Shown here piece by piece: positions 6,400-58,766 of a stretch of DNA of 64,000 nt (position 1 is the stretch's first letter; each line of letters starts with the position of its first letter). Position numbers and translations under genes: made by a program. The stretch spans positions 1,054,001 through 1,118,000 of the forward strand of contig NZ_AP023410.1 of assembly GCF_000193495.2 (NCBI RefSeq). Reading direction: 5' to 3'. The notes below the pieces were generated by a model. That model did no database searches and had not been told where the DNA came from. It was given only the letters and a program-made list of their open reading frames with translations. This DNA is from Acetobacter aceti NBRC 14818 (lineage in GTDB: Bacteria; Pseudomonadota; Alphaproteobacteria; Acetobacterales; Acetobacteraceae).

Positions 6400-6771
6400 C
6401 GCAGAATTAACGAGCGCATCTATTCTTGCGAGTGAATGACTGAATACAGAAATCCATCACGCCTTTACCAATTTCTGCTGTAAAATAAGAGACGTGATGA
6501 GTCCCAGCCCTTAAAGTCAGCGGAAAAAAAGCCCCTCTCCACACCACTAAAGCGAGGGGAATTATATATCAGAAGCGCAGCCGGAATGGCCGCGCATGTT
6601 TTCCGATATCGCACGATATTTTCAAAAGGTCTTTTCGTATCTACAGATGATACAAAAAGGCGCTTTGTGTTTTTTTGTTTCACATTCAAATGAATTTACC
6701 CTTATGATCGTGTCATACTGAAATGCGCCATCGGCGGAGAGTTGCGTTTTCTCCGCAACACAGGAAGAGAA
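6400..6771. other. Structured intergenic region, no protein gene
   Basis: There is no convincing coding sequence between ftsY and the next porin. Three inverted repeats are visible: a minus-strand terminator-like hairpin (6523-6560), a perfect ATATCG-CA-CGATAT palindrome (6606-6619), and a hairpin with arms TTTTcGTATC / GATACaAAAA (6632-6658). The region is noticeably AT-rich. It may hold the promoter and operator of the porin gene and possibly a small RNA on the minus strand. Confidence 0.5.
6523..6560 (-). terminator. Terminator-like hairpin without an upstream gene on that strand
   Basis: On the minus strand CCCCTC (6559-6554) pairs with GAGGGG (6537-6532) and is followed by C and seven Ts (6530-6524). 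No protein gene reads into it from the right, since the neighbouring genes point the other way. Confidence 0.5.
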
Positions 6772-8034
6772 ATGCCAATATCAAAATGGAAACCAGCCCT
6801 TATCCCTGCATTGGCTCTTCTGACGACAGGCAGCTCCATTTCGGGCCACGCCGCGATTCCGTTATTTACCAAAAGTACTGAAGCAACCGGTTTCGAGGAA
6901 TGGTGGCGGGGCATTACGCTGGCCGGCCGTATCGATGGCGGCATATCTGCCAATCCGGCCCGCCCCGATAACGGTATCAATTTCGGCAACTTTATTGGCG
7001 ACCATGCCAATCAGGCGCAGCTCAATCAGTTTGCCCTGACGCTGGCACATGACATCGATACAACGACTGATGGCTACAGCTTCGGTTTTACCCTTGAAGC
7101 GTCCTATGGTTCGGACTCACGGTATTACCATCTCCTCGGCATTTCCGACCGGGCTTTCAATTCGCGCTATCAGATCATTCCTTCCCATGCGCAGGTGGAC
7201 GCTCATCTCCCGTGGTTCACCAAGCTGGGCGTCGATATGCACGCCGGCATCCTTCAAGCCCCCATGGGGCTGGAAGCGTTCGATCCGAACGCACGGCCAT
7301 TTTATACATTTAGCTATACGGGCCAATATTCTGTGCCCTTCCAGCATGTCGGGATGATGGCCACCATTCACGTCACGCCCATGATTGACGTGCTCACAGG
7401 CATAGATACCGGTAACCAGACGACATTCGGACGGAGCGACAACAACAGCGCGCCTGCCGGATACGCAGGCATCACGTTGAATAATCTTGCACATGGCAAA
7501 CTGACCATAACGGAATTAAGCCGTTTTGGCTCTGAGGACTCTCGTATCGCCTTTCATCATGGCGCCAATGAGGATCTACGCTTCTGGAATGACCTTACGG
7601 CCATTTATAAAATTACTCCCACCGTTACTTTGACCGGTGAATTCAATTACATGCATGATGATGGACTGAGAGCCGATACAGAAAGTTTTGTTTCTTATCT
7701 CAGCTGGAATTTCATGAAAAATCTGACCTTCAATTATCGAGGCGAGATTTACCGTGACAACACGGGCCTGATGGTCGCCAATTTTTTAACCAATGAAGGT
7801 TACATGAACGCCATTGCGGGTCGTTCAGCACCGACAGAGAGCGCTCCACCCACCACTTATGGCGCCATGACACTGGGCGTGACCTACAGGACCTCTCTGA
7901 GCAAAGACTATGGTTATTTCGCAATCCGCCCGGAAGTCCGCTTTGATCGCTCGCTGAATGGGACGACACCGTTCAATGATAACCGTAACAGTGGCATGTT
8001 CACGTTCGGTGGCGACGCCATGATAGGTTTCTGA
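6772..8034 (+). CDS. Outer-membrane beta-barrel porin, BBP2/OmpL-like family
   Basis: A 420-residue exported barrel. The signal peptide ends at about SGHA-AI. The body has family-typical stretches (DAHLPWFTKLGVD, ARPFYTFSYTGQYSVPFQHVG) and ends in phenylalanine (AMIGF), as expected for Bam-inserted barrels. It is clearly paralogous to the porin at 51833-53194 in the amine dehydrogenase cluster (shared DAHLPWFTK, RPFY, GYxG and DGKL/HGKL blocks). The start at 6772 was chosen because AGGAAGAG ends two bases before it and the signal peptide then has a normal length; an upstream in-frame start at 6742 would add an unlikely extension. Substrate is unknown. It follows a structured intergenic region. 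Confidence 0.85.
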   Translation: MPISKWKPALIPALALLTTGSSISGHAAIPLFTKSTEATGFEEWWRGITLAGRIDGGISANPARPDNGINFGNFIGDHANQAQLNQFALTLAHDIDTTTDGYSFGFTLEASYGSDSRYYHLLGISDRAFNSRYQIIPSHAQVDAHLPWFTKLGVDMHAGILQAPMGLEAFDPNARPFYTFSYTGQYSVPFQHVGMMATIHVTPMIDVLTGIDTGNQTTFGRSDNNSAPAGYAGITLNNLAHGKLTITELSRFGSEDSRIAFHHGANEDLRFWNDLTAIYKITPTVTLTGEFNYMHDDGLRADTESFVSYLSWNFMKNLTFNYRGEIYRDNTGLMVANFLTNEGYMNAIAGRSAPTESAPPTTYGAMTLGVTYRTSLSKDYGYFAIRPEVRFDRSLNGTTPFNDNRNSGMFTFGGDAMIGF

Positions 8035-41941: not shown

Positions 41942-43183
41942 ATGAAAACACCCGAAAATACGGGCGACCATTCTGCGAATACGCCACCAGCAACCGGCCT
42001 CGCAGGCTGGATCGATCAGCGTCTTCCAGTCATATCCGCGTTTCGCGCCGAATATGTCGATTTCCGCCTCCCTCGCAACCTGAACTGGCTTTGGAACTTC
42101 GGAGCCATTCTGACGGTCGTGCTGGTGCTGATGCTGGCGACCGGCATCTTCCTCGCCATGAACTACACGGCGACAGATGCGGGCGCTTTCCTTTCGGTCG
42201 AGGCGATCGACCGGCAACTGGCAGGTGGCTGGCTCCTGCGGGCCATGCATATGACAGGCGCAAACCTGTTTCTGGCGGCGCTCTACATCCACCTTTTCCG
42301 TGGCCTGTATTACGGTTCCTACAAGGCTCCCCGTGAAATCCTCTGGCTGACCGGCCTCATCCTGCTGGTCATGGTCATGGCGACCGCCTTTGCGGGCTAC
42401 ATGCTGCCGTGGGGCCAGATGTCCTACTGGGGGGCGGATGTCATCACCAAGGCCGTCGGTGCGGTCCCTGTGATCGGTGGCACGCTTGAACACATCATGA
42501 CCGATAGCGACCATCTGGGCGACGTGTTCCTGCATCGCTTTTTTGTGCTGCACTTCCTGATGGCGTTTCTCGTCGTGGCCGTTGTCGGGCTGCATGTGAC
42601 AGCCGTGCATATCAGCGGCTCCAACAACCCGCTGGGCATTGAACCGAAGACAAAGAAAGACACGCTGACCTTTCATCCTTACTACACCACCAAGGATCTG
42701 GTCGGCTTGATCATCTTCGCCCTGATCTTTACGGCCCTGATGTTCTTCTGGCCCAATCTTCTGGCTGAGCCGGCGAACTATGCGCCCGCCGACCCGATGC
42801 ACACGCCCGCTGACATTGAGCCGGAATGGTATTTCCTGCCGTTCTACGGACTTCTTCAGTCGGTGCCGTCCAAGTTCGGCGGTCTTCTCGCCGCTGCCGG
42901 TTCGATTGCCGTGCTGTTTTTCCTGCCCTGGCTGGATCGCTCCCCCATCCGTTCGGCGCGATTCCGTCCGCTCTGCCGTGTGGGGCTGCTTGGCCTTGTC
43001 GTGGCGTTCGTGCTGCTGGCCGTCGCGGGCAAGCATCATGCGGAAGGCGTGTGGATGATCGTCGCCCGTCTGGCCGGTCTCTACTACTTCGGCTACTTCC
43101 TCGTGCTGCTGCCACTGGCCGCCCGCATGGAAAAGACGCGCCCCCTGCCCTCATCCATTGCCGCCGCAGAGGGAGACGCATGA
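41942..43183 (+). CDS. petB: Ubiquinol-cytochrome c reductase cytochrome b
   Basis: The diheme membrane core of the bc1 complex, 413 residues with about eight helices. Heme-ligand His pairs lie in RAMHMTGANLFLAALYIH and LHFLMAFLVVAVVGLHVTAVH; the Qo-site motif is PEWYFLPFY. The first 45 residues are polar and cytoplasmic. Its stop overlaps the next start, forming a petB-petC-petA operon with the Rieske gene last. Confidence 0.96.
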   Translation: MKTPENTGDHSANTPPATGLAGWIDQRLPVISAFRAEYVDFRLPRNLNWLWNFGAILTVVLVLMLATGIFLAMNYTATDAGAFLSVEAIDRQLAGGWLLRAMHMTGANLFLAALYIHLFRGLYYGSYKAPREILWLTGLILLVMVMATAFAGYMLPWGQMSYWGADVITKAVGAVPVIGGTLEHIMTDSDHLGDVFLHRFFVLHFLMAFLVVAVVGLHVTAVHISGSNNPLGIEPKTKKDTLTFHPYYTTKDLVGLIIFALIFTALMFFWPNLLAEPANYAPADPMHTPADIEPEWYFLPFYGLLQSVPSKFGGLLAAAGSIAVLFFLPWLDRSPIRSARFRPLCRVGLLGLVVAFVLLAVAGKHHAEGVWMIVARLAGLYYFGYFLVLLPLAARMEKTRPLPSSIAAAEGDA

Positions 43184-43959
43184 TGAAAAACGCACGTTTC
43201 CTCGCGCTCGCTGCTGCCGCTTTTCTTTCGGCTCCCCTGACCACACTAGCGGCTGTTCCAGAACCACTGGTTCCACCGCACCAGAAATGGGATTTCGACG
43301 GTCCGTTCGGGCAGTTTGACCAGAAAGCTCTGCAACGCGGTTTCATGGTCTATGACCGGATCTGCTCCACATGCCACGGTATGAAGGCGCTGACCTACAA
43401 TGACCTCAGCGGCATCGGGATGAGCGAGCAGGCCATTCTTGATCTGGCACATTCCAAGATGATTGCCGGACCACCCGATGTGTCCGGTCAGCCGACGTCC
43501 CGCCCCGGTCGTCCTGACGATCATTTCCGCTCACCGTTCCCAAGTGACGAGGCCGCGGCGGCGATGATGGGTGGCGTCGCGCCGCCGGATCAGTCCCGTC
43601 TGGCCGTCATTCAGCCGCACGGTGCGGACTGGCTTTACGCCTTTCTGACCGGCTACAAGATGCCACCGCCAGCGGATGCGCCTGTCGTGCCGGGCAAGTT
43701 CTATAATGACTGGGTGGATGGGCATCTGATCGGCATGCCACCCCCGCTGATGAACGGCATGATTCAGTATCCGGACGGCACGCCCGCGACGGTCGAGCAG
43801 CAGGCGCGCGACGTGACCAGCTTTCTGGTCTGGGCCGCCGACCCGCATCGCAACGCCCGTCATCGGACGGGACTCTGGGTGGTGCTTTATCTTATCGGGC
43901 TTCTTGTTCTGGCGATCGCATGGAAGAAGAAGACATGGAAACGCGTGAAGTCGCAGTAA
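43183..43959 (+). CDS. petC: Cytochrome c1
   Basis: The membrane-anchored monoheme cytochrome of bc1, 258 residues. A signal peptide ends near LAA-VPEP. The heme site is ICSTCHGM, with DWLYAFLTGY and MPPPLMNGMIQYPDG typical of c1. A single C-terminal anchor helix (LWVVLYLIGLLVLAIAW) is followed by a basic tail. ATG 43180 and ATG 43183 are adjacent; either may start. Confidence 0.95.
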   Translation: MKNARFLALAAAAFLSAPLTTLAAVPEPLVPPHQKWDFDGPFGQFDQKALQRGFMVYDRICSTCHGMKALTYNDLSGIGMSEQAILDLAHSKMIAGPPDVSGQPTSRPGRPDDHFRSPFPSDEAAAAMMGGVAPPDQSRLAVIQPHGADWLYAFLTGYKMPPPADAPVVPGKFYNDWVDGHLIGMPPPLMNGMIQYPDGTPATVEQQARDVTSFLVWAADPHRNARHRTGLWVVLYLIGLLVLAIAWKKKTWKRVKSQ

Positions 43960-47051: not shown

Positions 47052-47272
47052 AATCCCTTGTGAGAACAGGATAAGGGAAAATTGAACGGGGCGTATTCCG
47101 GATGTGGATCTGACGAAGTCTATATCCTGTTGAAAACAGTTATCGATAATAAAAACCCAATCTATATTTCAATATATACAGACATAAACAAATAATTTTC
47201 CAATAATGAAGCCAGAACGTTTTTCAGGTGTTATGGTCGTTTAGAGCAGCCACAACACTCAAGAGGACTCAC

Positions 47273-47734
47273 ATGCAGACAGTGCGCGTGAACGGACAGA
47301 CACATTCGGTCGATGTCGATCCTGACACGCCTTTGCTTTGGGTCTTGCGCGATGTGCTGGGGCTGAACGGCACAAAATTCGGGTGCGGCATCGCCCAGTG
47401 CGGTGTCTGCACTGTCCATCTCGACGGCCATCCTGTTCGCGCCTGCAATCTGCCTGTCGGCATGATCGGGGAGCGCTCTGTCACCACTATTGAAGGCGTC
47501 GACAACGCCGACCCCATCGTGCATGCCGTCAAGAAAGCCTGGACCGATCTGGATGTTGTGCAGTGCGGTTACTGTCAGCCGGGACAGGTGATGGCGGCGA
47601 TCGGGCTGCTGAAAACCGTTCCGAACCCGACGGATGAGCAGATCGACAGCGCTATGTCCGGCAATATGTGTCGCTGCGGCACCTATATGCGCATCCGCAA
47701 GGCCATCCATCTGGCGGCGGGAGAAACGGCATGA
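47273..47734 (+). CDS. 2Fe-2S subunit of molybdenum aldehyde dehydrogenase-type enzyme
   Basis: The small electron-transfer subunit of the xanthine oxidase family, 153 residues. The first cluster site is [22 protein letters not shown], the second [14 protein letters not shown] with [19 protein letters not shown] lies five bases before the ATG at 47273. It is first of three coupled genes; together they match the membrane-bound aldehyde dehydrogenase or isoquinoline oxidoreductase type enzymes of acetic acid bacteria (AldF/IorA-like). It overlaps the large-subunit start by four bases. Confidence 0.92.
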
Positions 47735-49887
47735 CCCGGATGCCTCTCACCACCCGTCGCGCCGCGCTTTTCGGTGGCGGTGGACTGCTTCTGGCGACAC
47801 TTTGGCCCTCGGCTTCACCGCGCGCGTCCACGGGCATGCTGGTTGAAAACGCCACGGCTCCCTTTGCACCCAATGCCTATATCCGCATTACACCCGACAA
47901 CAGCATCACCCTGATCCTGCCCAATATCGAAATGGGGCAAGGTATCTATACGTCATCCGTCATGCTGATCGCCGAGGAACTCGGCGTCGATCTGGCACAG
48001 ATCGAGATTGAGGCCGCCCCTCCCGGCAGCGCCGAGATCACTGGCGGCTCCACCTCCATCATGACCGAGTGGAAGCCCCTGCGTGAAGCCGGAGCGGCCG
48101 CAAGAACGGTGCTTGTTCAGGCCGCTGCCAGCCGATGGAATGTCCCCCCCACAAGCTGCACCGCCGCGTCAGGTGTTGTCACGCACACGCCGTCCGGTCG
48201 GACCTTCAAGTTTGGCGAACTGGCCACGGAGGCCGCCAAACTTCCTCTCCCCAAGGAACCGACACTCAAGGCAGCGTCCGATTACAGCCTGATCGGCAAA
48301 TCACAGCATCGTGTCGATAGCGCCATCAAGGTGAACGGCACTGCGGTTTTCGGCATCGACATCAATGTTCCGGGCCAGAAAATCGGAACGGTAGCGGCCA
48401 GTCCGGTCATCGGTGGCACAGTCCGCAGTCTGGATCGTGACGCCGCCATGGCCGTCCGGGGCGTTGTAGCTGTTCTGATCAACGAACCGCGTGATGCTGT
48501 CTGTGTTGTGGCCGAGCATTACTGGGCGGCGCACAAGGGGCTACAGGCTCTTCGGCCCGTGTGGAGCGAGAACGACAATGCTCATGTCAACACAAAGACA
48601 ATTTACGATCAGTTGCATGACGGTCTGAAAGGACCAGCGATCATTCCCAGCCCCAAAGGGGATGCGGACGCCGTCATTGCGAAATCCCATTCCACTTACA
48701 GTGCTGTTTACCAGCAGCCCATGCTGGCCCATGCGACGATGGAGCCCATCAATTGCACGGCTCATGTCCGTCCGGACGGCTGTGATGTCTGGGTTGGGAC
48801 GCAGGTTGCTGACCGTGCGCAGGAAACAGCCGCAGACGTCACTGGCCTTCCCAAGGAAAAGATCGCGGTTCACAGCCAGTATATCGGCGGTGGGTTTGGT
48901 CGTCGGCTGGAACATGAATACATCACTCAGTGTGTGCAGTTTGCGAAACAGACGAGTTATCCACTGAAAATTGTCTGGAGCCGTGAGGAAGACATTACAC
49001 GCGACCGCTATCGCCCCGCCTATGTCGATGAAGTGACAGCGGGCCTTGATGAAAAAGGCCATATCACGGCCATGAAACATCGCATTGTCGGTCCTGCTGT
49101 CGTCGCCCGCTGGGATCCACCGGAGCTGACAAAAGACGGCTATGACGAGGATCTTTCCGTCGCCACACTGATTACGCCCTACACTTACGATGCTTACAGG
49201 CTTGAATTCGCAAGACGCGAAGCACCGGGTGTCATCACCGCATGGTGGCGTGGCGTTGGCGGCACGCGAGGTCTATTTGTCGTGGAAAACTTCATTGACG
49301 AGCTTGCCGTCAAAGCTGGTGCTGATCCGGTTGCCTACCGCAGGGAGCTTGCGAAAGACAATGCTCGTGCCGTTGCTGTTCTGGACAGGGTGGCCAAGGA
49401 CTCAGGCTGGAGCGACCCTGTGTCGAAAGGACGGGCACGAGGTGTCGCACTTCAATTCGCCTTCGGCTCCTACATGGCCACCGTTGCGGAAATCGAGATG
49501 CCGACACCAGAGACCGTCATCATCCATCGCGTGACAGCAGCGGTGGATTGCGGACAGGTCGTCAATCCGGATCAGGTGATTTCCCAGATTGAAGGCGGTT
49601 TGATCTTTGGTTTCAGCGCGGCGCTCTATAACGAGATCACTCTGGAAAACGGTCGTGTGCAGGAAAACAATTTCAATACATGGCGTGTGATGCGCATGAA
49701 CGAAGCCCCACGACGCATTGATGTTCACCTGATCGCCAGCACAGAAGATCCGGGCGGCATTGGAGAAGTCGGAACGGCAGCGGCTGCTCCGGCGCTGGCC
49801 AACGCTATGGCCTCGGCACAGGGACATCGTTATCGGACACTCCCTCTGCTTTCCAGCCGGAATCAGGAAAAGGAAGCAGCACGATGA
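47731..49887 (+). CDS. Molybdopterin large subunit of aldehyde dehydrogenase / isoquinoline oxidoreductase type
   Basis: The catalytic subunit, 718 residues. The Tat signal is [12 protein letters not shown]. The Mo-cofactor regions include [32 protein letters not shown] and, near the end, the catalytic-Glu segment [16 protein letters not shown]. Members with a cytochrome c partner oxidise aldehydes (for example acetaldehyde) in the periplasm, feeding ubiquinone; the exact substrate cannot be read here. It overlaps both neighbours by ATGA-type junctions. Confidence 0.92.
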
Positions 49888-51128
49888 ACCGCCGCATTGT
49901 CTCTCGCTCCTGTTTTACACTTGCCCTGCTTGCCGGAACCAGTCTCTTCTCGACCTCTCGTGCCGCCACGGCTTCCTCACTTGAACGGGGCGAATATCTC
50001 GCCCGCGCCGCAGACTGCGAGGCCTGCCATACCGCACCGGGTGGCGCGCCTTTCGCGGGAGGACGCGCCTTCAATGTGCCGGGCATTGGGGTCATCTACT
50101 CCCCGAACATCACGCCTGATCCGGTTCATGGAATTGGCCGATGGACGGACGATGAATTCGTAAAATCTGTGCGAGAGGGTGTCTCTCCCGGCTGGAAGCA
50201 TCTCTATCCGGCCATGCCTTACCCCGCCTACTCCCGCATGAGCGTGGACGAGATGAAGGATCTTCGGGCGTGGCTCGAAACAGTTCCGGCGTCTGCCAAC
50301 ACAGCACCAGCCAATCAGGTAAAATTCCCGTTTTCCATCCGGACTCTGATGGTTGGCTGGAACCTGCTCAATGGTCCGGCCTCGTCCTATCCTGACGACC
50401 CGCAGAAGTCGCCTGAATGGAACCGGGGACGGTATCTGGTCGAGGGGCCCGGACATTGTGCTGACTGTCATTCGCCGCGCACAATAACTTTCGGCCTGTC
50501 AAAAGATAAGGCTTTTGCAGGGAATGTCGTCAACGGTCAGCGTGCCTACAATATCACCTCTGACAAAGGCAGCGGTCTGGGCGCATGGACGGATCAGGCG
50601 CTGACTGACTATCTGGCGACTGGCCATGCTGATGGCCACGGAACGGCATCGGGTGATATGGCGGAAGTCGTCAGCTATAGCCTGCGTCATCTGAAACCCG
50701 ATGATATTCACGCCATGATTGTCTATCTGCGTGATGTAAAACCCCAGTCATCCAATGATGGTGCGGCACCAGCACGCCAGCCTCCTTCCGGTGATACCAC
50801 CCTGCCCCAGCAGGCAAACGGAGCGAGACTGTTCGCATCGGCCTGTAGCGGCTGTCATCTGCCTGACGGTAGCGGTCGCCAGTCCGCTTTCGCCAGCATT
50901 GCCGGGGCTCGTAGCCTGAGCGCGGACAATGGCCGTAACCTGCTCCACGTCATCATGAATGGCTCGACCCTGATGACGGACAAGGGAAACCAGCCCATGC
51001 CCGCCTTCTCAGGAGGAAATTACAGCCAGAAAGACCTGAATGACATTGCCGCTTTTGTGATGACGCACTTTACAGAGGGCAAACCTTCGGAACACGCCTT
51101 CAGCGAATTTGCGAAGAAGCCAGACTAA
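49884..51128 (+). CDS. Triheme cytochrome c subunit of the aldehyde dehydrogenase-type enzyme
   Basis: A 414-residue periplasmic protein with a signal peptide (ending near SRA-AT) and three heme sites: CEACH (45-49), CADCH (192-196) and CSGCH (321-325). The three-domain layout matches cytochrome subunits of acetic acid bacterial alcohol and aldehyde dehydrogenases, which pass electrons to ubiquinone. The C-terminal tail shows no clear membrane helix. It is last in the operon and followed by a hairpin. Confidence 0.93.
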   Translation: MNRRIVSRSCFTLALLAGTSLFSTSRAATASSLERGEYLARAADCEACHTAPGGAPFAGGRAFNVPGIGVIYSPNITPDPVHGIGRWTDDEFVKSVREGVSPGWKHLYPAMPYPAYSRMSVDEMKDLRAWLETVPASANTAPANQVKFPFSIRTLMVGWNLLNGPASSYPDDPQKSPEWNRGRYLVEGPGHCADCHSPRTITFGLSKDKAFAGNVVNGQRAYNITSDKGSGLGAWTDQALTDYLATGHADGHGTASGDMAEVVSYSLRHLKPDDIHAMIVYLRDVKPQSSNDGAAPARQPPSGDTTLPQQANGARLFASACSGCHLPDGSGRQSAFASIAGARSLSADNGRNLLHVIMNGSTLMTDKGNQPMPAFSGGNYSQKDLNDIAAFVMTHFTEGKPSEHAFSEFAKKPD

Positions 51129-51208: not shown

Positions 51209-51808
51209 TCAGGCCGCCTGAATTTTCTGGCGCTTACGGTGCGTGATGTAATCCTGCACCGTTGTGAAACCGCTTTCCCAGGCGTTCAGCAGACTTTCCA
51301 GATGCTCCCGACTGTTCACCAGACCACGGGACAGTATGACGCCTTCTGAAGAAAGCAGGAACGCAGCGGGAAGTTTATCGACCTCCAGCACACGTCCAAT
51401 GATGGGATCATTGATAAAGCAATCCGCCTTTATCCCTGACTGCTGAACAAAACGCTGCTGAACCTCCGGCACATCATCTCCTGCAAAGACCAGATCGACT
51501 TGTTCTTTCCGGCAGAAGTCCTGTGCAATCGGAATGATCTTGCGCGACACAGGACATGTTGCAGAGACAAACAGCAGAAGAGTCGTACCACCTTTGCTAA
51601 CTGGACTGAAAGCCGCTCCGTTCAGCAAACGGAATGGTCCCGATGGGCAGTTGTCTCCCGGCTGAGGGCCTTTTGATCCTGTCAGCGCTCCTGCCGGTGC
51701 GACTTCCTTAAAAAGCTGCCTGACCTGATGCGTCAATCGCCAGGTCACAAAAAGCGTCGCCAGCACCACCACCGTCAGCAGCACATTGACACAGATCAGT
51801 GCTGTCAT
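51209..51808 (-). CDS. MauD-like redoxin with CxxS motif
   Basis: A 199-residue membrane-anchored thioredoxin-fold protein: an N-terminal helix (residues 3-22), then the redoxin domain. The active-site position reads CPVS (C85, S88) where the MauD at 54861-55466 has CPVC. The two share the anchor, PxxGD/GQ, LLLFVSATCPV and LPAAFLLSSEGVI blocks. A single cysteine suggests a monothiol, isomerase or chaperone role rather than dithiol oxidation. It is last in the amine dehydrogenase cluster. Confidence 0.8.
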   Translation of the reverse strand: MTALICVNVLLTVVVLATLFVTWRLTHQVRQLFKEVAPAGALTGSKGPQPGDNCPSGPFRLLNGAAFSPVSKGGTTLLLFVSATCPVSRKIIPIAQDFCRKEQVDLVFAGDDVPEVQQRFVQQSGIKADCFINDPIIGRVLEVDKLPAAFLLSSEGVILSRGLVNSREHLESLLNAWESGFTTVQDYITHRKRQKIQAA

Positions 51809-51832
51809 CGTCCCGCCTCCAGCCTGCAGACT

Positions 51833-53194
51833 TCAGAATGCCCAGATTGCGTCACAGCTGAACCAGAACATGTTGTTGGTGCCGTTGTTCGCATAGTTGA
51901 TGGTTGGATCATCCGTGGGCGACACGCGATTGAAAGGCCTTGTTCCATTCAACGACTTGTCCAGACGCAGTTCCGGACGAATGGTCAGGCTGCCTTTTGG
52001 CAGATGCAGGAACTGCGGACGATAGGCTACACCCACGGTCAGTGCGCCATAGGTAGTCCCGGCAGCATAATCGTACGGATAGGCCCGACCACGCAACTCG
52101 TTGATGTAGGACATCGTCGAAGTGTTGTTGCCGATGACACCACCATTATTGTCACGGAAAATTTCTCCCCGGGCATTGAATGTCAGCCAGGGATAGAAGT
52201 CATGGGCGAAATAGGCTGTGACGCCGTAAACATCGTCCTGCAGGTAATCGTCATGAAAATATGTGCCATTGAGAGTAAATGTCGTCTTATCATTGATTTT
52301 ATAGGATGCGATGATATCGCCGATATATTCCATCTCATGATTGGCGTCGCGACCAATGGCGTACACGCTCTGCTGTGGTCCGACATAGGCAAGAGCCGAA
52401 ATATCCAGTTTTCCATCGAGAAGGCCGTTTGACTGGAAACCGAAATATCCTTTTGGACGACTGTTGTTTTTCGCACCACCGAATGACGTCGAGTTACCGG
52501 CGTTCACGCCGAGTATCCAGTCGAAGTGATCCGCCAGATGGACTGTGGCCGTCACACCCACCACCTCAAACGGCACGATGAAGTCAGACGAGTAGTTGTA
52601 GCTGTAGAATGGACGTTCCAGAGCATCCGTCCCTTCCACACCCTGCATGCCGTACATCTGCCCGATCTGAAGATCGACGCCATCCTTTGTGAACCAGGGA
52701 AGATGCGCATCGATATGCGCCTGTGTAGGTGCAAACTGGTACATACCGGTGATGGCACCATCAGCCATGCCAATGGTCGGATTGAAACGGGCGTCCGAGC
52801 CGTACAGGACTTCAAATGTGAAGCCGAGCCCGTATCCGGCGCCGATTTCGGAAACCGGATGAGACAGCGTGCCAGTAATCTGGTTCAGCGTCGCGGTATT
52901 GGCGCGATCGACATAGGACTGCGCCCAGTTACGCCCTGTATGGGTCCAGGGGTTGCCGTTCACACCGGCTTCAACAACAATGTGACCTTCGAGATCATCA
53001 AACCAGCTATGGCTTCCGGGCGGTTGAAGATTCACGTCCACCTTGGCAGCATCAGCTTTCTCGGCTTCCGTCTCCTCACCGACCAGAGGACGTCCCGACT
53101 CTTCCGGTGTCAGTCGCTCCTGAGCAAAAGCAGGCAGCGAAACAAGCTGGAGTGCAAAATACGCACCAATGGAGAGACGGGGACGAAAAGCCAT
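51833..53194 (-). CDS. BBP2/OmpL-like outer-membrane porin in the amine dehydrogenase cluster
   Basis: A 453-residue barrel with a signal peptide ending PAFA-QE and a C-terminal phenylalanine (CDAIWAF). It is paralogous to the porin at 6772-8034, with shared DAHLPWFTKDGVD, ALERPFYSYNYSS and GYFGFQSNGLLDGKL blocks. Between the cytochrome genes and the redoxin, all leftward, it may supply the outer-membrane path for the amine substrate. GGAG lies 13 bases before the ATG, somewhat far. Confidence 0.84.
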   Translation of the reverse strand: MAFRPRLSIGAYFALQLVSLPAFAQERLTPEESGRPLVGEETEAEKADAAKVDVNLQPPGSHSWFDDLEGHIVVEAGVNGNPWTHTGRNWAQSYVDRANTATLNQITGTLSHPVSEIGAGYGLGFTFEVLYGSDARFNPTIGMADGAITGMYQFAPTQAHIDAHLPWFTKDGVDLQIGQMYGMQGVEGTDALERPFYSYNYSSDFIVPFEVVGVTATVHLADHFDWILGVNAGNSTSFGGAKNNSRPKGYFGFQSNGLLDGKLDISALAYVGPQQSVYAIGRDANHEMEYIGDIIASYKINDKTTFTLNGTYFHDDYLQDDVYGVTAYFAHDFYPWLTFNARGEIFRDNNGGVIGNNTSTMSYINELRGRAYPYDYAAGTTYGALTVGVAYRPQFLHLPKGSLTIRPELRLDKSLNGTRPFNRVSPTDDPTINYANNGTNNMFWFSCDAIWAF

Positions 53195-53284
53195 GTGCGG
53201 AACACTCCTTATCTGACATCATACTGGCTGGTCAGCGACGTCCCGGTATCCAGAAGATTACAGAGATGAGCGACCGTTTTATTT

Positions 53285-53833
53285 TTACAGTTTCTTTGCA
53301 GTCTTCTGGGCACAGGCTGCCAGAGAACGTTCAAGGGTCTGCCCCCGCTGCGCCATGAAATCCGGAACCGATAAAGGCTCTCCCCGCCATTGATGAATCT
53401 CGGCTGCCGTATAGGGTCGGAATCCTTTCGGCAGACTGGTTCCCGCCAGACGGAACATGACAAAATTCATGACATCCGCGAGGGTTTGATCGTCCCGAAT
53501 GAGCGACATCGACACACCGGGCACACGGATCAGATAGGCGCGCCCTTCGTCCGTGCAGGCAAACCCACCGACAGCGTTGCGCAGAGTGGGAACAAAGCTG
53601 TTTCCCGACACGCCCTCAATACCGTGACACCCGCCGCAATGAGACAGATAGGTCACGCTGGTGTGGTCAAGCACAGTCGCGTGCTCCACGGAATCCTTCG
53701 CATGGGAAACACCGGACAGGAAGAACCCACTTCCTGCGATCAGCATCAGAACCGGAACGACCCGCAGCATGAGAGCCGCTCCGAAAACTGAACGCCGCAA
53801 TCCCGCTTTCTCAGGGGACAGGATGCGCAGCAT
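53285..53833 (-). CDS. Monoheme c-type cytochrome
   Basis: A 182-residue exported protein with one heme site, CGGCH (66-70). A signal-anchor lies at about 22-45. The start overlaps the end of the upstream cytochrome gene by 23 bases. MPS/APC-type azurin or amicyanin is not present in the cluster, so this and the next cytochrome are the obvious electron acceptors. The C-terminal half (RPYTAAEIHQWRGEPLSVPDFMAQR) has no motif I know. Confidence 0.85.
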   Translation of the reverse strand: MLRILSPEKAGLRRSVFGAALMLRVVPVLMLIAGSGFFLSGVSHAKDSVEHATVLDHTSVTYLSHCGGCHGIEGVSGNSFVPTLRNAVGGFACTDEGRAYLIRVPGVSMSLIRDDQTLADVMNFVMFRLAGTSLPKGFRPYTAAEIHQWRGEPLSVPDFMAQRGQTLERSLAACAQKTAKKL

Positions 53834-54287
53834 TCAACTTGTTTCGCTCTTCAAGAACAGCCGCAGGCGTCAGGGAAGACGCACGTTCCTTCTTCACCTC
53901 ATCAGCAGAGAAAGTCGGTGCAGGCTTTACGTCGCTGAGAGACGCAACATAGGTCAGAATGGCCGCAATATTCTCGTCACTCTGCGCACCAAAGGACGGC
54001 ATGTAGCCCATGTAAGGGTTACCCCCAGCCTTGATCATGCCGGACAAACCGTTGAGCAGAACGTGCGTGACATACGCCTTGCCTTCCGGTGTGGAAGCAA
54101 TCGTGCCGATACGGTCCTTGAGCGGGGGAAACTGTCCGACAACACCTGCGGCGCTGGCCTGATGGCACAGGCTGCAATTCGCTGTGTAAAGCTGCTGTCC
54201 GTCTGCTGCGGCATGCGCGTTGCCGGAGATGGCCGTGCCGCCGACAAGAAGGGCCGCGGCACTCAGGGAAAGGAGAATTTTCTTCAT
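53811..54287 (-). CDS. Monoheme c-type cytochrome
   Basis: A 158-residue class I-like cytochrome c. The signal peptide ends NAHA-AA near residue 26; the heme site is CSLCH (38-42), with a probable distal Met in NPYMGYMPSFGAQSDENIAAILTYV. The start at 54287 was chosen because MKKILLSLSAAALL is a clean signal peptide; the frame is open upstream into the light-chain gene. It directly follows the light-chain gene and is the likely first acceptor of electrons from TTQ. Confidence 0.9.
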   Translation of the reverse strand: MKKILLSLSAAALLVGGTAISGNAHAAADGQQLYTANCSLCHQASAAGVVGQFPPLKDRIGTIASTPEGKAYVTHVLLNGLSGMIKAGGNPYMGYMPSFGAQSDENIAAILTYVASLSDVKPAPTFSADEVKKERASSLTPAAVLEERNKLNAAHPVP

Positions 54288-54313
54288 TATCACTACAATC
54301 TGCTTCTGGAGTC

Positions 54314-54874
54314 TTACGATGCCCTGCCGACCACGGCTGCGGTCGAGCAATTGTACATCTCCGATGTTCCCGTTCCGAAACACCATATGATGTCGTTGTT
54401 GGCCATCGGGCGATAGGACGGCTGATCACCATCCGTATTGAGGCAGGTCACCTCGTTACAGGAGTCCTGACCACAGCAGTCACGATAGGCAATCATGTAG
54501 GAATTGCCATCCTGCGGATTATAGCAGCTTCCGATCCATGAAGTGGGTGACGGCGCGGTTCCCGGCGGACATGTATGGGTGCCGCCACCGCAGGAGGTGC
54601 AGAGATTGCCGTCGATGGCGCAGTAACGCCAGTAATCGCAGGCCAGATCATCCTTGGCCTGTGCTTTCGCAGCAAACGGTGACTGCGCCTTGGGCTTTGC
54701 AGTCGCCGCGTCAGCGCGGCTGACCGGCAGCAGCATGAATGCCGGAGCCGCCGCAACAGCGCCACCGACCTTTGTCAGCACATCGCGGCGCGAGGTACGC
54801 CCGGCGATCCGCCGAAGAACGCTTTCTGTCAGACGATCCAGCATTGAACCCTGTTTCTTTTCAGACGGCAGCAT
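54314..54874 (-). CDS. mauA: TTQ amine dehydrogenase light chain (MauA/AauA)
   Basis: The catalytic subunit of methylamine or aromatic amine dehydrogenase, 186 residues. The Tat signal is TSRRDVLTKVGG (RR at 29-30). The mature part keeps twelve cysteines for the six disulfides. Aligned to Paracoccus MauA, the two TTQ tryptophans are W113 (SWIGSCYNP) and W164 (NDIIWCFG), and the key aspartates are D88 (AIDGN) and D132 (AYRDCCG). It overlaps mauD by 14 bases. ATG 54844 is an alternative start. Aralkylamine versus methylamine specificity is unresolved. Confidence 0.95.
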   Translation of the reverse strand: MLPSEKKQGSMLDRLTESVLRRIAGRTSRRDVLTKVGGAVAAAPAFMLLPVSRADAATAKPKAQSPFAAKAQAKDDLACDYWRYCAIDGNLCTSCGGGTHTCPPGTAPSPTSWIGSCYNPQDGNSYMIAYRDCCGQDSCNEVTCLNTDGDQPSYRPMANNDIIWCFGTGTSEMYNCSTAAVVGRAS

Positions 54875-55466
54875 GAGAAATCACTCCTGTCTCCACCCGC
54901 TCGACTTTCGGAGCCACCGGAACAGTGTCCAGCAAATCCTCGATCTGACGGCGTGTATTCACAATATCCTTGACCCGGATGACGCCGCGCTCATCAAGCA
55001 GCACCAAAGCAGGCAGACGGTTGATTTGCAGGACCAGCCCAAGCTCCACTCCCGTCAGAAGCGGAACACCCTGCATCTCAGGGCGGCTGGCCACCATATC
55101 CTGAAGTTCGGGAACAGGACCGTCCCCGACAAACAAAAACTCGAACCCTCTGGAAGCGGCCACCTCACGCGCAACGGGAATCACGCGTTTGCAGACCGGG
55201 CATTCAGGTGCCACGAACAGGAGCATCTGGTAATGTCCCGGTTGCAGGGCGTCACCGATCATAACCGGCTTGTCTTCCAGCGTGTGCAGAACCAGTCTCG
55301 GAACAGTCTGCCCGACATCCAGTCCCGGCCGCGCTTCCTGATCGCCAATCGGCGCGGTGCGTTCGTGAAGAACACCGATCTGGCGTGCGAGCGCGAGCAG
55401 CGTCACAGCAAGGACCAGCACCAGAACCGTCAGAAAGCCCTGCCAGATGAGAAGAGCGACCATCAT
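54861..55466 (-). CDS. mauD: MauD, disulfide-handling maturation protein
   Basis: Needed in known systems for disulfide formation in the light chain. It has 201 residues: an N-terminal anchor helix (about 3-27), then a periplasmic redoxin domain with the dithiol site CPVC (C89, C92) in LLFVAPECPVCKRVIP, and LPALVLLDERGVI. It overlaps mauE by four bases and mauA by 14. Confidence 0.93.
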   Translation of the reverse strand: MMVALLIWQGFLTVLVLVLAVTLLALARQIGVLHERTAPIGDQEARPGLDVGQTVPRLVLHTLEDKPVMIGDALQPGHYQMLLFVAPECPVCKRVIPVAREVAASRGFEFLFVGDGPVPELQDMVASRPEMQGVPLLTGVELGLVLQINRLPALVLLDERGVIRVKDIVNTRRQIEDLLDTVPVAPKVERVETGVISHAAV

Positions 55467-56011
55467 GCCCGCTCTCCTCCTGTCGCATCACTGAGCGACA
55501 CATCCGGCAGAACACGCAGCGCCTGCCAGAGCACCCACAGAGCCACGCCACAAGCGACGCCTTCAAGCTGGACACTGACAGAAGGCGCCACTCCAGCCAT
55601 CACAGGCAGCAGTGCGGGCAACGCACAAACCAGCGTCCGCAACACCAGTGACCTGGAAAGCGTCTCGCCTTTCTGTCCCGGCGTGCAACCACAGGACAGA
55701 TCGGTACGTCCCCGCATGACGTTGACACCCATCGCTACAGCGAAGAGCACCAGAAGCCCAGCGGCAACAACACCCCCGACGGCCTGCCTGACACCGGACA
55801 GCAACATCAGACCAGCAAGCACCTCTGCCGCACCCAGCCCCCACGCAGCAGCCTCAAGAGACCATGCGGGAAGGAGCCGGTAGGACGACAGCGTTCCAAG
55901 AAAGAGGTCATGTTCCCGTAGCTTGGACACTCCAGCGACAAGAAACATGATCCCCACCCCTCCGGCACAGAGGGCAGAAAGTCCACCCATCATGAGAGAG
56001 GCGGCATTCAT
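55463..56011 (-). CDS. mauE: MauE, membrane maturation protein
   Basis: A 182-residue inner-membrane protein with about five hydrophobic helices and the MauE/DoxX-like pattern FLVAGVSKLREHDLFLGTLSSYRLLP near the start. A cysteine pair (DLSCGCTPGQ) sits between helices and could exchange electrons with MauD. It works with MauD in light-chain disulfide formation in characterised systems. It overlaps both neighbours by four bases. Confidence 0.92.
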   Translation of the reverse strand: MNAASLMMGGLSALCAGGVGIMFLVAGVSKLREHDLFLGTLSSYRLLPAWSLEAAAWGLGAAEVLAGLMLLSGVRQAVGGVVAAGLLVLFAVAMGVNVMRGRTDLSCGCTPGQKGETLSRSLVLRTLVCALPALLPVMAGVAPSVSVQLEGVACGVALWVLWQALRVLPDVSLSDATGGERA

Positions 56012-57237
56012 CCTTCACCGGGTGCAACCGTGAAGATCAACGAACCGCCAAGGGCTTTCATCTTGTGCACCTGCTTGCCGGTTTTCGCATCGAGGATATA
56101 AAAATCGCCCGTGTCTTCGTCCGTTGTGAACATCAGCGGATGATCATCCTGAGTCACGCCAACCATCGGGCTCGGCGTGGGCAGGGACATGCGGCGAACA
56201 CGCTTGTGCGTTTCGGTGTCGTAGACCCAGACTTCCGAGCCGGCTTCCTTGTGGCTCCAGAACGGTCCCTTGTGCATCAGCACATACAGTTCGTGACTGC
56301 TTTTGTGCAGGGCGGACATCTGCCAGCCACCCGGACGCCATGTCACCTCGAAAGGCTTGGACGAGTCCGGCGCCGCCTTCATGCCAGCCCCTTCCTGCAG
56401 GGACCATGGCTTGCTCACAACAGCATCCGCTCCGAGCTTCGTTTCATAAACCTTGCCGGTATAGCTGATGAACCAGGCCATACCGTCCTTGGTCACGGAC
56501 GGGCTCTGCTCAAAGATACCGTCGTGGTCAGGCTCAAAGAAAGCTGCGCTATGCGTCATGGACGGCTTGCCGTCAGCGCCGATGCTGACATTGGCCAGCG
56601 TGCCATCAGCACAGAGCGAGGAAAAACCGCTATTGCCCCAAGGGTAAACCAACGCACAACCCGGCACATCGACCGTCTGCGTGACCTTATGGGACGCAGT
56701 ATCCACCACTTCGACCGCACTACCGGGGCTCATCTGGTAAACATAGACATGAGACCCGTCCGCACTGATCGCGAGGTTGTTGCGCTTGGGCGTGACCAGC
56801 GCACGGGACGGAAGCTTTTCGTCAGCAACGATCTTCAGCGTGCTGCTTTCATATTCAGCCAGCAGATCATTACGCTCACCGCGATTGCCGCGTTCCCATG
56901 TTGTTTCACCAACAAAGAAATGGCTTGCGTCAGGCGACAGAACGACATTGGGGTTATAGGCAGCCTGCACCATTCCCAGCAGACGCCCCTTGTCGGCGTC
57001 CACCACATAGGCGCGGCCATCCTTGCCATGCTGATACACCGCATCCACGACCAGAATCGTATGAGGCGACCATGGGGCCAGCGTTGCAATATCGCTTTGT
57101 TCCGTCTGGGGAATGGGTTCGTCTGCCCGCGCCGAGGCTGTTGCTGCAAGAAGAGCGACCCCGCCCAGTAAAGAACGGAGAAAAGCAGCGCGACTGCTCT
57201 TCGTATTACGCGAATGCGGGAACGTCATGAGACTCAT
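56008..57237 (-). CDS. mauB: TTQ amine dehydrogenase heavy chain (MauB/AauB)
   Basis: The large subunit, 409 residues: signal peptide (cleaved near ARA-DE) and seven-bladed propeller. Recognisable blocks are HTILVVDAVYQHGKDGRAYVVDADKGRLLGM, ERGNRGERNDLLAEYES, PGCALVYPWGNSGFSSLCADGTL and, near the end, SEVWVYDTETHKRVRRM. It forms an alpha2beta2 enzyme with the light chain. It is first gene of the cluster, with a 533-base intergenic region upstream. Confidence 0.94.
   Translation of the reverse strand: MSLMTFPHSRNTKSSRAAFLRSLLGGVALLAATASARADEPIPQTEQSDIATLAPWSPHTILVVDAVYQHGKDGRAYVVDADKGRLLGMVQAAYNPNVVLSPDASHFFVGETTWERGNRGERNDLLAEYESSTLKIVADEKLPSRALVTPKRNNLAISADGSHVYVYQMSPGSAVEVVDTASHKVTQTVDVPGCALVYPWGNSGFSSLCADGTLANVSIGADGKPSMTHSAAFFEPDHDGIFEQSPSVTKDGMAWFISYTGKVYETKLGADAVVSKPWSLQEGAGMKAAPDSSKPFEVTWRPGGWQMSALHKSSHELYVLMHKGPFWSHKEAGSEVWVYDTETHKRVRRMSLPTPSPMVGVTQDDHPLMFTTDEDTGDFYILDAKTGKQVHKMKALGGSLIFTVAPGEG

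Positions 57238-58766
<1,529 letters not shown>

Follow-up and report, generated by a model that had tools for sequence, protein, structure and literature searches.

A gene cluster for an amine dehydrogenase of the tryptophan tryptophylquinone (TTQ) kind in Acetobacter aceti NBRC 14818 raises the question of how this cofactor is completed where the cluster holds no mauG gene. The cluster occupies positions 51209 to 57237 of the 64,000-nucleotide stretch of DNA that was analysed, referred to here as the window (NCBI RefSeq assembly GCF_000193495.2, contig NZ_AP023410.1, positions 1,054,001 to 1,118,000 of the forward strand). To our knowledge, TTQ completion in mauG-less clusters has been an open question since Chistoserdov described the aromatic amine dehydrogenase (aau) cluster in 2001. 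Three patterns, namely co-occurrence with the light chain of the enzyme, mutual exclusion with MauG, and the deletion of a heme-ligand loop, single out one gene of the cluster, here called cyt2, as the candidate for this step. If this is true, the MauG route, the basis of the known mechanism literature, is not the general one. The cluster would also extend to primary amines the range of compounds that acetic acid bacteria may oxidise in the periplasm.

As a whole, we slightly favour the explanation that the window encodes a periplasmic TTQ amine dehydrogenase outside the clades of methylamine dehydrogenase (MADH) and aromatic amine dehydrogenase (AADH), with its own maturation and electron-transfer genes and with cyt2 in the place of MauG. 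Taken by itself, the proposal that cyt2 replaces MauG in finishing TTQ stands, on the sequence comparisons below, at about an even chance or just under it.

All eight genes of the cluster lie where the original prediction had placed them, on the minus strand and running from 57237 to 51209, and family matches confirm the content that it had described, in the order heavy chain, MauE, MauD, light chain, two monoheme cytochromes c, BBP2 porin and a second MauD-like redoxin:

56008..57237, minus strand: MauB-like heavy chain, a beta-propeller subunit of a TTQ amine dehydrogenase (PF06433, E 1.2e-56; TIGR02658, 199.5 bits, below the cut-off of 454.45)
55463..56011, minus strand: MauE membrane protein, with a presumed role in light-chain export and folding (PF07291, E 1.9e-23)
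54861..55466, minus strand: MauD, thioredoxin-like, with the motif CPVC (TIGR02661, E 2.6e-37, 128.1 bits, below the cut-off of 188.6)
54314..54874, minus strand: MauA-like TTQ light chain (PF02975, E 2.5e-49, 166.8 bits against a cut-off of 25)
53811..54287, minus strand (open reading frame, ORF, to 54386): cyt1, a monoheme cytochrome c of the Thermus c552 kind, with the motif CSLCH (PF00034, E 6.6e-12; c552, E 2.5e-25)
53285..53833 (ORF), minus strand: cyt2, a monoheme c552-like cytochrome with the motif CGGCH and the axial-Met loop deleted (AlphaFold2 model, mean predicted local distance difference test score, pLDDT, 93.3; comparison with c552 and cyt1)
51833..53194, minus strand: BBP2 outer-membrane porin, presumed to serve substrate entry (PF07642, E 9.2e-42)
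51209..51808, minus strand: second MauD-like redoxin, with the motif CPVS (TIGR02661, E 3.4e-33, below the cut-off)

The start of cyt1 is probably the internal Met at 54287, where a signal peptide begins. The CPVS motif means that the second redoxin has lost the second active-site Cys, which MauD retains. The same gene order recurs in relatives and is therefore not due to chance. A search of the A. aceti genome (3.69 Mb, five contigs) found a single light chain, which is 100% identical to one from Acetobacter sp. UBA5411.

The light chain keeps the residues that the original prediction had read as TTQ-forming and catalytic: W113, W164, D88, D132 and 12 Cys are all present, and the first four align with W57, W108, D32 and D76 of the Paracoccus denitrificans light chain, MauA, in what we take to be the Paracoccus numbering. 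All 150 aligned light chains have equivalents of W57, W108 and D76, and 145 of them have that of D32, the window included (three short rows of 153 were omitted, and some organisms are present twice). The PF02975 match, both TTQ tryptophans and the catalytic Asp that mark a TTQ amine dehydrogenase are thus found together in the window protein, which also starts with a twin-arginine-type leader (TSRRDVL). Given such conservation of residues, and of the operon across relatives, we regard it as very improbable that the enzyme lacks TTQ or is non-functional in this host.

No ORF of the window matched a model for MauF, MauG, MauJ, amicyanin, MauM or MauN. The corresponding genes are likewise missing from 143 of 148 related loci and present in five mau loci, with amicyanin absent from one of these (L194), so that the predicted absence of mauG, mauF and amicyanin from the cluster is borne out well beyond the window. 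The loci reach up to 10 kb on each side, with less than 5 kb on one side of 18 of the 152 light-chain copies; 148 loci are not 148 organisms, some having come from both collections.

The candidate for the vacant place is cyt2. It follows the light chain, directly or past cyt1, in 78 of the 80 loci retained from a scan of named genomes that gave at least 591 related stretches, and in 12 of 12 loci from a draw across the phylum. Among Acetobacteraceae genomes, cyt2 scores at least 120 bits in 36/36 genomes with a light chain over the cut-off vs 1/361 others, the next best match being 56 bits; the sole exception (G145) is a genome 66% complete in which cyt2 stands at a contig start. In the phylum draw of 398 genomes, a full-length light chain and a cyt2 of 112 bits or more mark the same 11 genomes, the next cyt2 score being 48. 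Combined, and with the A. aceti genome, present in both draws, counted once, every one of the 46 distinct genomes whose light chain is full-length has cyt2, vs 1 of 748 other draws.

Mutual exclusion is seen at the level of loci. With a cut at 60 bits, 140 of the 148 have cyt2 without MauF or MauG, five have MauF and MauG without cyt2, and three have neither. These last three are extra heavy-light pairs in genomes that carry cyt2 elsewhere, beside other copies in one (L068) and in complete B-E-D-A-cyt2 clusters in the other two (L151, L152). On the five plasmids that bear classical MauG clusters cyt2 was found nowhere, the search covering the plasmid records. The gene is also kept in 14 loci without mauE and mauD (one of them, L069, cut by a contig end, and some organisms counted twice), and 20 of 21 paralogous cyt2 copies track the type of cluster, not the genome. 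Part of this tracking is accounted for by the common descent of entire clusters.

The sequence of cyt2 suggests what sets it apart. It aligns, as cyt1 does, with Thermus c552, and the two align with each other at 98.6% probability, which indicates that both are of c552 descent. In c552 an axial Met is a ligand of the heme. In 67 of 68 cyt1 rows the distal loop and its Met are intact, and cyt2 is without the approximately 18 residues that carry it: the distance across the distal loop is 22-23 residues in 84/84 non-redundant cyt2 rows vs 41-42 in 67/68 cyt1 rows. The protein has the heme site of a class I c552 cytochrome and lacks the axial-Met loop. No Met or His remains in the distal segment of 30 of the 84 rows, and none of Met, His, Cys, Lys, Arg or Tyr in 15; the aligned distal position is H in 23, M in 20, F in 14, R in 6, G in 6, and other residues in the rest. 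Gly27, Gly33, Pro41 and Asn82 are invariant beside the heme motif. CxxCH occurs in 133 of 137 cyt2 matches, the other four being partial or frame-broken ORFs; its invariance in the alignment is by construction, because these four rows were dropped beforehand. Cyt2 had no Pfam match at 1e-3, and none was matched by a MauG model. Because it always accompanies the light chain, yet does not conserve a sixth ligand, cyt2 resembles an enzyme more than it does a carrier.

Several observations weigh against that reading of cyt2. Co-occurrence would also be expected if cyt2 were an electron acceptor that the enzyme cannot do without. In 54 of the 84 rows the short distal segment does contain a Met or His, among them a Met at position 68 of the window protein, which could supply a sixth ligand. 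In a Foldseek search with the cyt2 model, no Protein Data Bank (PDB) entry scored at E ≤ 0.001; the best, Thermus c552 structures, reached 1.2e-3. One genome whose light-chain fragment formally passes the cut-off (G659) has no cyt2. Finally, proteins related to MauG are widespread in light-chain genomes: the MauG model TIGR03791 has matches at E 1e-3 in 42 of 46 (34 of 36 from the family, 8 of 10 from the phylum), and a second model, built from three mau-linked MauGs, matches 12 of 21, the A. aceti genome included.

The first of these points can be developed into an alternative in which cyt2 is only a dedicated electron acceptor, or a relay with cyt1, and TTQ is made by another route, for example autocatalytically with MauE and MauD. 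We think this rather unlikely. It would account for a small secreted c-type cytochrome encoded in the operon, and for evolutionary distances that correlate better between MauB and cyt2 (0.89) than between MauA and cyt2 (0.78, both over 141 clusters), as docking to the heavy chain could give; the Met or His left in most distal segments would also suit a carrier. It fares less well with the loss of the Met loop from every cyt2 row and of any Met or His from a good third of them, and with the presence of the Met-keeping cyt1 in 74 of the 148 loci. The electron acceptors of TTQ enzymes vary, amicyanin and azurin both being used, and cyt2 does not.

The MauG-related proteins lead to a further alternative, in which an unlinked member of the superfamily finishes TTQ and the system is an ordinary mau type with dispersed genes. 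MauG oxidises the Trp residues of preMADH to TTQ according to one report (PMC6405878); in another, its substrate is described as a mono-hydroxylated Trp, the first hydroxylation being thought autocatalytic (PMC7876137). The whole-genome search for MauG proposed in the original prediction did return two MauG-superfamily (CCP_MauG) proteins in A. aceti, with 188.8 and 138.4 bits against the MauG alignment, and both lie far from the cluster and unlinked to it. Against TIGR03791 they score 139.9 and 81.6 bits, the cut-off being 443.85. That cut-off was rejected as a test for MauG, since annotated MauGs fall below it (P. denitrificans 94.6 bits, Indioceanicola 398.6 bits); no genome passed it (0/42 and 0/11). 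One of the two A. aceti proteins resembles a membrane-anchored cytochrome c peroxidase, its nearest NCBIfam model being MbnH, below the cut-off of that model. The other (L003 63-2661) adjoins a gene that reads as a phosphoesterase or phospholipase C.

On the replacement model the three mau-linked MauGs from which it was built score 486-601 bits, and at E 1e-3 it finds nothing in 9 of the 21 light-chain genomes searched with it. The 21 were not chosen at random (15 were hand-picked, including four without a TIGR03791 match), so that 9/21 is not a rate. The nine are G219, G178 (89% complete), G654, G453, G585 and the genomes of L151, L152, L101 and L138, the L151 and L138 records being metagenome assemblies. 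G453 and G585 are single contigs, 100% complete, and G219 is a 100% complete Acetobacteraceae genome; none of these three matches either MauG model, whereas G654 has a weak TIGR03791 match (20.8 bits) that counts on the other side. Superfamily proteins were moreover found in 5 of 5 searched Acetobacter genomes without a light chain. Completion of TTQ by an unlinked MauG relative appears improbable in the light of these figures. A literature search turned up no paper that we recognised as dealing with a MauG-free TTQ factor.

Which enzyme does the cluster encode? Among solved structures, both subunits are closest to MADH: the light chain scores 179.7 bits against MADH 3c75 (leader included), 143.1 against the mature chain of MADH 4o1q and 127.9 against AADH 2agl, and the heavy chain 164.3 against MADH and 146.7 against AADH. 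The NCBI equivalog cut-offs for MADH are not reached, by a wide margin for the heavy chain (199.5 against 454.45 bits) and narrowly for the light chain (195.6 against 196.85). In the heavy-chain tree, 29 rows from acetic acid bacteria, sphingomonads and Caulobacteraceae, that of the window among them, make up one clade (support 100); the five rows of MauG-bearing clusters (support 100) and the AADH group (99) stand apart from it. The light-chain tree likewise has a mau clade (3 rows, 100/99) and an AADH-type clade (11 rows, 98/94), and both exclude the window, which groups with nine other Acetobacteraceae rows (99/95); mau is nested in a larger alphaproteobacterial group (97/100) and adjoins the window rows at 93/87, below the starring threshold. 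Because of this nesting, it is chiefly the heavy chain that sets a third clade apart. The heavy-chain tree was made by a quick method from 60 of 150 rows, with loci chosen to span the groups, and the light-chain tree from 73 of 153 rows after a redundancy filter, three long-branched wrong-frame rows (L057, L079, L123) being given no weight. Both trees are unrooted, and in both the MauG-bearing clusters form one clade within the diversity of the cyt2 type.

Single residues follow the same division. The position that we take to be Thr122 of MADH is Thr in 5/5 mau and 16/16 AADH-group rows and Ser in 114/114 window-group rows, S177 in the window itself; it is also Ser in the two rows of L151 and L152, and mixed in 13 other rows (9 Ser, 3 Thr, 1 Arg). 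At the heavy-chain gate, presumably Phe55, the window has Tyr, and the residue is variable within the window group, which hints at different substrates among its members. The window enzyme is very probably a TTQ amine dehydrogenase outside both named clades. Assignment to AADH by layout was rejected on the position of its subunits in the trees, and assignment to MADH by best PDB matches on the equivalog cut-offs and on its place outside the mau clade. The original prediction had judged the cluster nearer to aau; this holds for the MauG-free layout and not for the subunits, which score higher against MADH and belong to neither clade. A strictly methylamine-type phylogeny, which it had named as the result that would make the system an ordinary one, is seen in neither tree.

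With aau the cluster shares B-E-D-A followed by two monoheme cytochromes and the lack of mauF, G, J, M and N. An annotated Pseudomonas aeruginosa RW109 cluster (aauB-mauE-mauD-aauA-cyt-cyt) has the same layout as the window, as presumably does that of Alcaligenes faecalis; the RW109 enzyme sits in the AADH-type light-chain clade, and its subunits match solved AADH best. The window differs from aau in the subunits lying outside the AADH clade, in Ser for Thr, and in the added BBP2 porin and second redoxin. Chistoserdov reportedly noted in 2001 that the aau cluster lacks mauF, G, L, M and N and contains a monohaem cytochrome, orf-2, which may correspond to either cyt1 or cyt2. A second aau paper is said to have obtained functional enzyme from aauBEDA and orf-2 in P. 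denitrificans, a host with its own mauG. With the mau systems of Paracoccus and Methylobacterium the window shares the mauB-E-D-A core and the nearest solved relatives of both subunits. It differs from them in having no MauF, amicyanin, MauJ, MauG or MauM/N, a heavy chain far below the MADH cut-off and outside the mau clade, Ser for Thr, and Tyr at the Phe55 gate. Thermus c552 (1c52, 1dt1) is the best fold match to cyt2, to which its heme motif and C-terminal half align, and differs in the residues that cyt2 has lost and cyt1 has kept. With MauG, a member of a diheme peroxidase family (PF03150), cyt2 would have in common only the proposed function, being a protein with a single CxxCH and without a Pfam match.

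We present the following sequence of events as a proposal. Heavy and light chains would form the enzyme, as homology and the conserved residues suggest. The MauE and MauD families have a role in light-chain export and disulfide folding, and MauE and MauD may aid these steps here. The Trp pair would then be converted to TTQ without MauG: the cyt2 heme, free of the sixth-ligand loop, may take the place of MauG by activating O2 or H2O2 and withdrawing electrons. The finished enzyme would convert a primary amine to aldehyde and ammonia, as is known for the family, and electrons may leave through cyt1, an ordinary Met-type cytochrome, instead of amicyanin. The amine would enter through the porin, and the aldehyde may be oxidised by the molybdo-aldehyde dehydrogenase whose genes recur in the neighbourhood.

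In its broadest form, which we hold tentatively and at somewhat less than an even chance, cyt2 may be a second, independent solution to TTQ biosynthesis, that is, a c552 descendant which lost its Met loop and came to activate oxygen or peroxide, perhaps together with cyt1 as a split counterpart of the two-heme MauG. The cyt2 system would then be the general and older one, and MauG a single later replacement in the branch that includes the methylotrophs.

Of 397 Acetobacteraceae genomes, 37 have a light-chain match at E 1e-3, and 36 of these pass the cut-off. The matches fall in 11 of 102 genera, counting that of the remaining genome, G122, whose light chain is a remnant with four in-frame stops (C1:1656488-1656691, L165). 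The phylum draw of 398 genomes gave 13 with a match, 11 full-length and two fragmentary (G659 and G122); the G659 fragment has 23 residues and 24.5 bits (25.1 with neighbours), just over the cut-off. Genus g42 contributes 13 of the matching genomes, each with two or three light-chain copies. In this multi-cluster genus, the secondary clusters (L047, L060, L062, L064, L066, L071) encode both chains and both cytochromes and lack mauE and mauD. On P. aeruginosa plasmid pF061_1 (L205 5644-9413), B-E-D-A-cyt-cyt is flanked by recombinase and transposon genes, as if it were a mobile unit. No relative was found on viral contigs. The original prediction had remarked that acetic acid bacteria are not known for amine respiration; our literature search found no paper on the subject, but the genes themselves, present in 36/397 family genomes, are not rare in these bacteria. 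A cocoa-fermentation metagenome study reports a surge, at one time point, of genes labelled methylamine dehydrogenase/amicyanin (EC 1.4.9.1), discussed under the methane cycle (PMC9671152); it is possible that these came from acetic acid bacteria with clusters of the present kind.

Three genes on the opposite strand end tail to tail with the cluster, across a gap of 80 bp:

47228..47734, plus strand: 2Fe-2S subunit of a molybdopterin enzyme of the aldehyde dehydrogenase type (PF01799, E 1.1e-28)
47668..49887, plus strand: molybdopterin subunit (PF02738, PF20256)
49884..51128, plus strand: cytochrome c with three CxxCH motifs (PF00034)

Among 73 Acetobacteraceae loci and 45 loci of sphingomonads or caulobacters, homologues of the 2Fe-2S subunit occur in 17 and 18, respectively, those of the molybdopterin large subunit in 20 (46-97% identity among the matches listed) and 18 (33-45% identity among the matches listed), and those of the three-CxxCH cytochrome in 24 and 0. 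By a rough estimate, the recurrence of the large subunit is far above chance for a gene with a few copies per genome. Because the molybdo-aldehyde dehydrogenase recurs as a neighbour, we infer a periplasmic chain from amine through aldehyde to acid. The BBP2 porin is found in 15 loci, all of Acetobacter; near other members, TonB-dependent receptors were found with two queries in 29 and 1 of 73 Acetobacteraceae loci, 0 and 10 of 45 sphingomonad or caulobacter loci, and 1 and 6 of a further 30 loci. The substrate, which would enter through an outer-membrane protein, may be larger than methylamine.

A second BBP2 porin lies far from the cluster at 6742-8034 (plus strand; PF07642, 170 bits). The cytochrome b and cytochrome c1 genes of a bc1 complex are located at 41942-43959 (plus strand), approximately 7 kb from the cluster, and an ORF family that includes a bc1-gene ORF, with a cytochrome-b-like example, appeared in eight loci when all ORFs near the loci were clustered; overlapping frames blur this clustering, which provides leads only. 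The hemB gene at 57627-58766 (plus strand) stands head to head with mauB, and hemC follows the cluster on a Haematobacter plasmid (L203), possibly by chance.

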